DNA from: Burkholderia vietnamiensis LMG 10929
GTDB lineage: Bacteria; Pseudomonadota; Gammaproteobacteria; Burkholderiales; Burkholderiaceae
Length of the DNA: 64,000 nucleotides
Direction: 5' to 3'
NCBI RefSeq assembly: GCF_000959445.1
Contig: NZ_CP009631.1
Coordinates: 496,001-560,000, forward strand
The notes beneath the pieces are model-generated. The model had not been told where the DNA came from, did not search any database, and was given only the letters and a program-made list of their open reading frames with translations. Position numbers and translations under genes: made by a program. Below, piece after piece: positions 817 to 2,729 of the stretch; position 1 is the first letter of the stretch, and each line of letters starts with the position of its first letter.

Positions 817-1476
817 ATGGCCTTTTTGCTCCATCAAGCTCGCTTCTACACGACCGTCAACCATCTGCGCGACCTGCCGCCGACGGTGCAGCCGGAAATC
901 GCATTCGCGGGCCGTTCGAATGCCGGCAAATCGACGGCGATCAACGTGCTGTGCAATCAGAAGCGACTCGCGTTCGCGTCGAAGACGCCCGGTCGCACGC
1001 AGCACATCAACTACTTCTCGGTCGGCCCCGCCGCGGAGCCCGTCGCGAACCTCGTCGACCTGCCCGGCTACGGCTATGCGGAAGTGCCCGGGGCCGCGAA
1101 GGCCCACTGGGAAATGCTGCTGTCGTCCTATCTCGCGACGCGCTCGCAGCTCTGCGGCCTGATCCTGATGATGGATTCGCGCCGCCCGCTGACCGACCTC
1201 GATCGCCGGATGATCGAGTGGTTCGCCCCGACCGGCAAGCCGATCCACACGCTGCTGACGAAGTGCGACAAATTGACGCGACAAGAGAGCATCAACGCGC
1301 TGCGCAACACGCAGAAGGGGCTCGACGCGTACCGCGACCAGGGCGTGAAGGGCAAGCTGACCGTCCAGCTGTTCTCGGCGCTGAAGCGCACGGGGCTCGA
1401 CGAGGCGCACGAATTGATCGAGAGCTGGCTGCGGCCGTCCGTCGCCGACGCAGAAGGCGCACCTGTAGCACAATGA
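817..1476 (+). CDS. engB: ribosome biogenesis GTPase EngB (YsxC/YihA)
   Basis: A small GTPase of the TrmE-Era-EngA-EngB family, needed for assembly of the large ribosomal subunit. At 219 aa it has the usual length. G1 is GRSNAGKS (residues 32-39), G3 is DLPGYG, G4 is TKCDK and G5 is SAL. The frame stays open upstream to 583, but the ATG at 817 gives the normal family N-terminus ([10 protein letters not shown]). No strong Shine-Dalgarno sequence precedes it. It is a single gene, divergent from the cytochrome c gene and followed by a candidate small RNA on the other strand. Confidence 0.95.
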
Positions 1477-1541
1477 ACGGGCAGCGCTCGGCCGGCAGCG
1501 GCCGGGCGCACCTGACGGTGTCTGCGGATTCGGCCGGCTCA

Positions 1542-1647
1542 TAAAAAAACCCGCCGTCGAACGGCGGGTCAAACAGCCTAATCGAAAAACGACAGGCACC
1601 CGCTCAGGGAGGAGAAGCGGGGAGCAGCACGCAACGCGCGCCGCTCG
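1542..1647 (-). ncRNA. candidate small RNA with an anti-Shine-Dalgarno hairpin loop
   Basis: The engB-hemB gap holds three consecutive hairpins on the minus strand. SL1 (1646-1622) has an 11-bp stem with two G-U pairs. SL2 (1621-1599) has stem CCCGCT/AGCGGG and an 11-nt loop TCTCCTCCCTG, which is complementary to a Shine-Dalgarno sequence. A single-stranded U-rich stretch follows, then a terminator hairpin CCCGCCGT/ACGGCGGG with seven Ts. A -10-like TATGAT (1659-1654) lies 7 nt before the inferred start; the -35 is weak. No protein frame fits. The structure is seen in the sequence; the regulatory role (pairing to ribosome binding sites of target mRNAs) is inferred. It may match a catalogued Burkholderia sRNA, which I cannot check. 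Confidence 0.7.
1543..1568 (-). terminator. intrinsic terminator of the candidate small RNA
   Basis: The 8-bp stem CCCGCCGT/ACGGCGGG has a 3-nt loop and is followed on the minus strand by seven Ts. The + strand has no T-run after it, so it does not serve engB. This orientation is a main reason for calling a minus-strand transcript here. Confidence 0.85.
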
Positions 1648-1685
1648 ATCGCTATCATATACCAACGATCTCGAAAATGACCTAA

Positions 1686-2729
<1,044 letters not shown>

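Follow-up and report, generated by a model that had tools for sequence, protein, structure and literature searches.

The anti-hemB/ncS04 small RNA of Burkholderia vietnamiensis: an engB-linked RNA family with sigma-E-type promoter motifs in relatives outside Burkholderia

Introduction

The gap between engB and hemB of Burkholderia vietnamiensis LMG 10929 carries a strongly structured sequence on the minus strand, and this locus raises the question of which RNA is encoded there, how it might act and what drives its transcription. The window, that is, the whole stretch of DNA analyzed, comprised 64,000 nt (contig NZ_CP009631.1, positions 496,001 to 560,000). A first-pass annotation, made from the letters of the window, had proposed a small RNA (sRNA) with a Shine-Dalgarno-masking loop at this site. 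Taxonomy follows GTDB; "the order" denotes that of Burkholderia, and "the class" Gammaproteobacteria. The features of the locus are listed below.

1542..1647, minus strand: sRNA transcript (anti-hemB/ncS04 homologue), about 105 nt, from the fold and the published J2315 length
1541..1623, minus strand: match to the Rfam model RF02837 (anti-hemB), 85.1 bits, above the gathering cut-off of 49.5
1622..1646, minus strand: SL1, the 5′ hairpin, from the fold; its arms co-vary between lineages
1599..1621, minus strand: SL2 hairpin, from the fold and alignment helix 2
1607..1614, minus strand: CUCCUCCC, anti-Shine-Dalgarno motif in the SL2 loop (loop UUCUCCUCCCUGA), from the sequence
1576..1597, minus strand: SL3, the third hairpin, from the fold and alignment helix 3
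1543..1570, minus strand: intrinsic terminator with U-tract (expected Hfq site), from the terminator scan
1654..1659, minus strand: −10 element TATGAT, from the sequence
817..1476, plus strand: engB (GTPase, PF01926), convergent neighbour of the sRNA
1731..2729, plus strand: hemB (PF00490), divergent neighbour of the sRNA

Structure of the sRNA locus

The 106 nt at 1542-1647 (minus strand) folded with −58.1 kcal/mol, compared with −36 ± 3.4 kcal/mol for shuffled sequences (z −6.46), and none of 200 shuffles was as stable. Four stem-loops were obtained: one at the 5′ end, the CU-rich hairpin, a third that is weaker, and the terminator. The minus-strand hairpins with a CU-rich loop and a U-tract terminator described in the first-pass annotation are present, its count of three hairpins being replaced by four. 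Terminator-like sites within 1400-1800 were found on the minus strand only; there were two, overlapping, the better one at 1570-1548. The loop word CTTCTCCTCCCTGAG (1603-1617, minus strand) occurred once in the 64 kb when up to two mismatches were allowed, with 0.05 occurrences expected by chance. The SL2 loop is complementary to Shine-Dalgarno sequences.

A TATGAT had also been noted just upstream of the RNA. It was located at 1659-1654 on the minus strand, and a simple sigma-70 scan returned no −35/−10 pair; no −35 is recognisable. The start of the sRNA was placed at 1646-1648 from the published J2315 length and the spacing to the −10 element. The hemB coding region begins about 85 nt away from the sRNA 5′ end and is therefore free of overlap with the sRNA.

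Identity with a published RNA

The window sRNA is the catalogued anti-hemB/ncS04 of Burkholderia, and the RNA itself is therefore already known. It lies between engB and hemB on the opposite strand, as given for RF02837, and it is the only copy above the RF02837 cut-off in the B. vietnamiensis genome. According to the available text of the B. cenocepacia J2315 publications, ncS04, named anti-hemB, occupies 292949..293053 of chromosome 1 (105 nt), between BCAL0264 and BCAL0265 in the orientation "<- -> <-". Its start was taken from dRNA-seq and its 3′ end from RACE; it was included in Northern panels, and co-purification with Hfq was reported. The candidate sRNA is thus real. Its predicted length, about 105 nt, agrees with the published value, and the comparison with B. 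cenocepacia sRNA lists suggested in the first-pass annotation leads to ncS04, which is the same RNA by sequence, structure, position and length.

In the same available text, ncS04 levels measured by qPCR in B. cenocepacia did not differ significantly across the seven conditions tabulated, and brief exposure (20 min) to SDS, peroxide, salt, low pH or low iron induced hardly any of the B. cenocepacia sRNAs tested. Anti-hemB also appears in the sRNA list of a B. pseudomallei screen, in the part of that report available. The available part of a Cupriavidus metallidurans transcriptome study states that B. cenocepacia and B. pertussis sRNAs were not detected there (PMC7563307). Three further publications (PMC6515984, PMC9029176, PMC13414033) had no bearing on the RNA in the text available. 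As far as the available text of the ncS04/anti-hemB publications extends, no inducer or function is assigned to it, and neither a sigma-E promoter in relatives nor an engB linkage beyond the genus is mentioned. Among open-licence papers, no link was found between anti-hemB/ncS04 and sigma-E or the polA/engB sRNAs, and no sigma-E experiment on anti-hemB/ncS04 was found.

Double-hairpin or toxic sRNAs (RF02278, ncS27 and others) resemble the window RNA in their CU-rich anti-Shine-Dalgarno loops and in the proposed mode of action. They form a separate family, which S17/CT_433 of Bordetella pertussis resembles. The RF02278 model gave no match at the window locus among matches up to E 1, and it has four copies above its cut-off elsewhere in the B. 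vietnamiensis genome.

Distribution and gene neighbourhood

At E ≤ 0.001, RF02837 matched 299 of 399 genomes of the order (245 above the cut-off) and 184 of 200 genomes of the family (160 above the cut-off). In a class-wide sample, 124 of 274 genomes had a match and 14 passed the cut-off, two of these in the own order and 12 outside it. The matches below the cut-off overstate the true family, since 3 of 14 control genomes likewise gave such matches, which moreover include other CU-rich sRNAs (e.g., L308-L311).

Across 115 sRNA-anchored loci of the order, many of them from close Burkholderiaceae and hence not independent, engB was present in 107 and hemB in 97, which makes engB the more constant neighbour. 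The engB gene was convergent with the sRNA and downstream of it in 96 of the 107 copies; in 11 it lay upstream in tandem. The direction of the terminator, which the first-pass annotation had found wrong for engB and in need of another explanation, is accounted for by this conserved convergent layout. One genome of the order (L168) carried two sRNA cores about 180 nt apart, with neither engB nor hemB in the 3-kb stretch.

The divergent position relative to hemB, nearby at 97 of the 115 loci, would fit a cis-acting antisense RNA of hemB, working through transcript overlap or through interference between divergent promoters. The −10 region at 1653-1659 is moreover a symmetric TATNATA (TATGATA/TATCATA), a form that copies of Paraburkholderia, Pandoraea and Cupriavidus share, and it could be a bidirectional −10 shared by the sRNA and hemB. 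Against such a role stand the distance of about 85 nt to the hemB start, without overlap of the coding region, and the 18 of 115 betaproteobacterial loci at which hemB was not found and the RNA stays.

Conservation and co-variation

Alignment A1 comprised 70 of 74 listed copies across the order. Over 16 pairs, 91.4% of cells were paired, and 9 pairs, with 122 cells, had changed on both sides. Shuffled alignments gave a mean of 6.4 such pairs (4 of 500 reached 9) and a mean of 39.0 such cells (none of 500 reached 122). Controls in which the structure was slid along the alignment gave 20-66 both-side cells and 33-47% paired cells, a comparison that favours the unslid structure because it was predicted from A1 itself. 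The count of further pair types was less telling, at 29 compared with 25.7 in shuffles and reached in 20 of 500.

The three helices differed in their variation. Helix 1 (SL1) showed both-side changes in 5 of 5 pairs, with 78.2% of cells paired, and helix 3 (SL3) in 3 of 4 pairs. Helix 2 (SL2) was nearly invariant, with 100% of cells paired and 4 of 7 pairs never varying. The loop core was constant in A1, partly because the betaproteobacterial set had been chosen by the exact core string; this string was absent from 3 of 118 sRNA loci and from 37 of 80 hemB loci.

A second alignment, A2, held 44 sequences, namely 43 of 46 loci from other orders and the window copy. A stem of at least 5 pairs enclosing CUCCC was found in 41 of the 44, with 33 distinct stems. 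When the 3′ arms were dealt at random, a mean of 32 sequences (maximum 37) still scored, since the arms are GC-rich. The three misses (L001, L402, L412) had been anchored at a wrong CTCCC, and the stem is visible in them by eye.

Across the 70 copies of A1, together with the stems of the 44 sequences, the arms therefore compensate in relatives while the loop is kept. This is the reverse of the pattern, uncompensated arms and a drifting loop, that the first-pass annotation had named as counting against its proposal.

Many copies outside Burkholderia (L006-L030 and others) carry a second CU-rich motif in the terminator loop, like UACUCCCCUUU. It is absent from Burkholderia copies, leaving one anti-Shine-Dalgarno loop.

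Promoter motifs

Upstream of copies outside Burkholderia, elements resembling GGAACT-N17/18-TCTTA were observed. They were counted in 155 distinct upstream regions, or 123 once near-duplicates were removed. The strict bipartite motif was present in 55 of the 123 non-redundant regions (shuffles: mean 0.1, maximum 2), and a broader motif at a fixed distance from the core in 84 of the 155 (shuffles: mean 0.98, maximum 4). Within the order and outside Burkholderiaceae, the broader fixed-distance motif was found in 67 of 103 copies and missing from 36, and at least one copy carried it in 28 of the 33 other sampled families. Weaker versions, AAACT-N17/18-TCATA, occurred in Cupriavidus (5 of 5), Pandoraea (3 of 3) and Paraburkholderia (6 of 6).

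The motif was found in none of 21 Burkholderia sensu stricto copies, the window copy included. It was likewise found in none of 13 comamonad-type loci, a set made up of Variovorax, Ramlibacter, Caenimonas, Polaromonas, Hydrogenophaga, Rhodoferax and two Comamonadaceae MAGs. In some Variovorax and Caenimonas copies (L077, L087, L091, L093, L095, L101), elements like TTGAAA/TTAAAT were noted by eye only, which suggests a second promoter switch.

The enterobacterial sigma-E consensus consists of GGAACTTTT and GTCAAA and is used by the sRNA genes rybB and micA, according to the available text of PMC1804206; for Neisseria, that of PMC2893595 describes a different −35. Leaders of rpoE in the order served as a control. 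The first strict sigma-E pattern was found in none of 29 rpoE leaders; with a relaxed −10, 21 of the 29 carried elements like TGAACTAAT-N17/18-GTCTTT. The −10 was relaxed after these leaders had been inspected, and the rpoE training pattern was picked after the sRNA promoters were known.

A weight matrix was built from the 21 rpoE leaders, three secondary rpoE matches (L222, L230, L234) being excluded. Scores of at least 4 were obtained in 51 of 123 sRNA upstream regions; on the opposite strand 5 of 123 regions reached this score, and among shuffles 3.2% did. The medians were 2.7 and −9.4. The window copy scored below zero. Of the 33 regions scoring at least 6, 32 had a −35 that began 60-66 nt upstream of the loop core; transcripts would accordingly start at the 5′ hairpin, as proposed for the window. 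The motif is thus directional toward the RNA, which speaks against a cis-antisense role at hemB.

Many ECF sigma factors have the −35 AAC core in common, and the motif might accordingly belong to another ECF sigma factor, or to an operator, with no envelope-stress role. The rpoE element ends GTCTTT-like, while the sRNA −10 is mostly TCTTA, TCATA or TCTGA (56 of 69). Furthermore, literal GGAACTT-N16-18-TCTKA had 6 matches in 10 genomes compared with 15 for the reversed pattern; there was no enrichment, which leaves the exact pattern uninformative genome-wide. The transfer of the rpoE-trained matrix to the sRNA regions, with the same 17-18 nt spacing, argues the other way, as does the presence of RpoE above the family cut-off in 52 of 60 genomes of the order. 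So does the dependence of the Pseudomonas sRNA ErsA on AlgU, a functional homologue of sigma-E, as described below. On balance, another factor or an operator is considered distinctly unlikely, and sigma-E is preferred as the factor behind the motif.

Copies in other orders

The 46 other-order loci analyzed were among the best-scoring of 122 other-order genomes with an RF02837 match. The RNA had polA and/or engB beside it in 39 of them, and both in 20; in Pfam searches, DNA polymerase I was identified at four loci and an EngB-type GTPase at two. No hemB was found in any of the 46 stretches. In 37 of the 46 loci a sigma-E-type motif was present (shuffles: mean 0.55, maximum 5), its −10 being defined more loosely than for the betaproteobacterial set; the motif thus tracks the RNA and not hemB. 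Cis-antisense control of hemB as the main role was set aside, as both RNA and promoter are retained at loci in which no hemB was found; we regard it as very improbable and retain a trans-acting RNA as the preferred reading.

The E. coli gene spf (Spot 42), located between polA and yihA, thus shares the polA-engB locus with the RF02837-like RNAs of other orders; ersA of Pseudomonas presumably occupies the same position. Similarity to ErsA and sX13, together with this position, might be convergent, as CU-rich loops arise often and the intergenic site could simply be favoured. Several results fit convergence. The ErsA model RF01719 matched 5 of the 46 loci (30.0-37.1 bits) and the sX13 model RF02232 matched 4 (33.1-48.3 bits), all below the gathering cut-off of 50. 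The model of ar14, a CU-rich family, gave weak matches in 6 loci (30.2-40.5 bits, gathering 58.8), and those of suhB, SorX and RF02278 in one or two loci each. Such weak cross-matches are insufficient alone for kinship and may reflect shared composition. Spot 42 gave no RF02837 match up to E 5, and the sub-cut-off control matches mentioned above point the same way. The window copy matched neither RF01719 nor RF02232 up to E 1, and Rfam lists no clan for the anti-hemB, ErsA and sX13 families. Convergence is opposed by the 12 genomes outside the order in which RF02837 passes its cut-off, and by the recurrence of neighbour, promoter and SL2 hairpin across the 46 loci. Synteny and promoter carry more weight than weak cross-matches as family evidence, and convergence is judged unlikely.

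The sX13 RNA of Xanthomonas lies downstream of polA, and its C-rich loops repress targets with G-rich motifs without Hfq (PMC3771888). It resembles the anti-hemB family in its polA position and its C-rich hairpin loops, which in sX13 act on motifs near target starts, and differs from ncS04, which co-purifies with Hfq. Its authors noted the polA locus as common to Spot 42 and alpha-r7 and found no relatives by sequence beyond Xanthomonadaceae; the available text does not mention RpoE (PMC3771888). ErsA is driven by AlgU/sigma-22, represses algC with Hfq and was presented, in its first description, as functionally orthologous to Spot 42, again in the text available (PMC5819304, PMC8395346). It is under a sigma-E homologue, whereas the Burkholderia anti-hemB promoter is not sigma-E-like. 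RybB and MicA, two sRNAs under sigma-E control, reduce the levels of omp mRNAs, in the case of RybB together with Hfq (PMC1804206, available text); they parallel the anti-hemB relatives in the sigma-E drive proposed for the latter, and no sequence relation is claimed.

Several other-order loci held two to five tandem RNA copies (L416 at 1201-1939, L418 at 1201-1923, L377, L380, L390 and L419). In L416, the sX13 model describes one copy better (48.3 bits) than RF02837 does, and a different copy has an additional match to ErsA (37.1 bits). A c-di-GMP-I riboswitch (77.9 bits) was found near the sRNA locus in another other-order stretch (L384, 1737-1821).

Candidate mode of action and targets

By analogy with better-studied C-rich RNAs, the window RNA would block translation at ribosome-binding sites through its SL2 loop. 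RIL-seq in B. pertussis, in the available text, found that partners of the CU-rich sRNAs CT_433 (S17) and CT_521 carry Shine-Dalgarno-like motifs complementary to the C/T-rich seeds, and that levels of both sRNAs drop without Hfq (PMC12235514). Pairing of C-rich loops with the ribosome-binding site has reporter support for sX13 in the accessible text of PMC3771888.

A scan of the own genome for TCAGGGAGGAGAAG with up to two mismatches yielded 32 sites, one of them the sRNA gene, whereas the reversed pattern yielded 6; of the remaining 31 sites, 29 were inspected. The best site, and the one 13-nt complement of the full loop found at a start codon besides the sRNA gene, precedes a PF10118 gene. 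It was intact in only 10 of 26 same-genus orthologues, the own copy included, and absent from 11 more distant or paralogous leaders among those listed.

The rpoE leaders were also considered; 51 were counted, two of 53 loci (L291, L299) being left out. TCAGGGA, the complement of the constant UCCCUGA, was present in 12 of the 51, compared with none of 149 hemB and none of 116 engB leaders. All 12 belonged to the 43 with an sRNA match below E 1e-8, and none to the 8 others, a weak association given n = 8. Duplex energies with z < −2 were obtained for 10 of 51 rpoE, 7 of 148 hemB and 6 of 116 engB leaders. The B. vietnamiensis rpoE leader (L206) lacks TCAGGGA. A feedback loop between rpoE and the sRNA is possible in Betaproteobacteria, judging by this complementarity. 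As an observation in itself, UCAGGGA forms an unusual ribosome site in rpoE leaders (L216, L225, L232, L283 and others).

Discussion

The reading that we consider probable is that the window encodes a translation-blocking sRNA from an old, engB-linked family driven by sigma-E, and that this sRNA is constitutive in Burkholderia. It draws on the observed structure and its co-variation, on synteny and promoter motif statistics, and on the published transcript with its Hfq co-purification. The copies without the motif, the cross-matches below cut-off and the incomplete conservation of the best target site weigh against it. ncS04/anti-hemB would act in trans as an Hfq-associated sRNA. SL2 would display UUCUCCUCCCUGA, which is predicted to pair with UCAGGGAGGAG-like Shine-Dalgarno regions of target mRNAs, so that their translation would be blocked.

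The family appears to be old and mostly convergent to engB, spread over the betaproteobacterial order and other orders of the class. Its ancestral driver would be the envelope-stress sigma factor sigma-E (RpoE), the sRNA serving as the RNA component of the envelope-stress response. The sigma-E −35/−10 would have given way to a TATGAT-type promoter in Burkholderia sensu stricto, and such a replacement would explain the steady expression of ncS04 in Burkholderia. We infer the sigma-E dependence of the sRNA, its targets and the direction of the promoter change from the comparisons described above.

A wider proposal stands evenly balanced in our judgement. Anti-hemB, the RF02837-like sRNAs at polA/engB and probably ErsA and sX13 would form one ancient sigma-E-driven family with C/U-rich loops, convergent to engB. 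In many Betaproteobacteria it would feed back negatively on rpoE via UCAGGGA; in Burkholderia the promoter and the rpoE site would have been lost, and the RNA would have become constitutive.

Measured against the open-licence literature, the ancestry of the promoter, its loss in Burkholderia and the link across polA/engB sRNAs appear to be new. The question about polA sRNAs in other bacteria was raised in the sX13 paper, which in its available text named only Spot 42 and alpha-r7 (PMC3771888). The promoter switch, if true, would account for the unchanged ncS04 levels in the seven tabulated B. cenocepacia conditions. A catalogued orphan RNA would thereby gain a testable role, as the sRNA branch of the envelope-stress response that RpoE controls across Betaproteobacteria.
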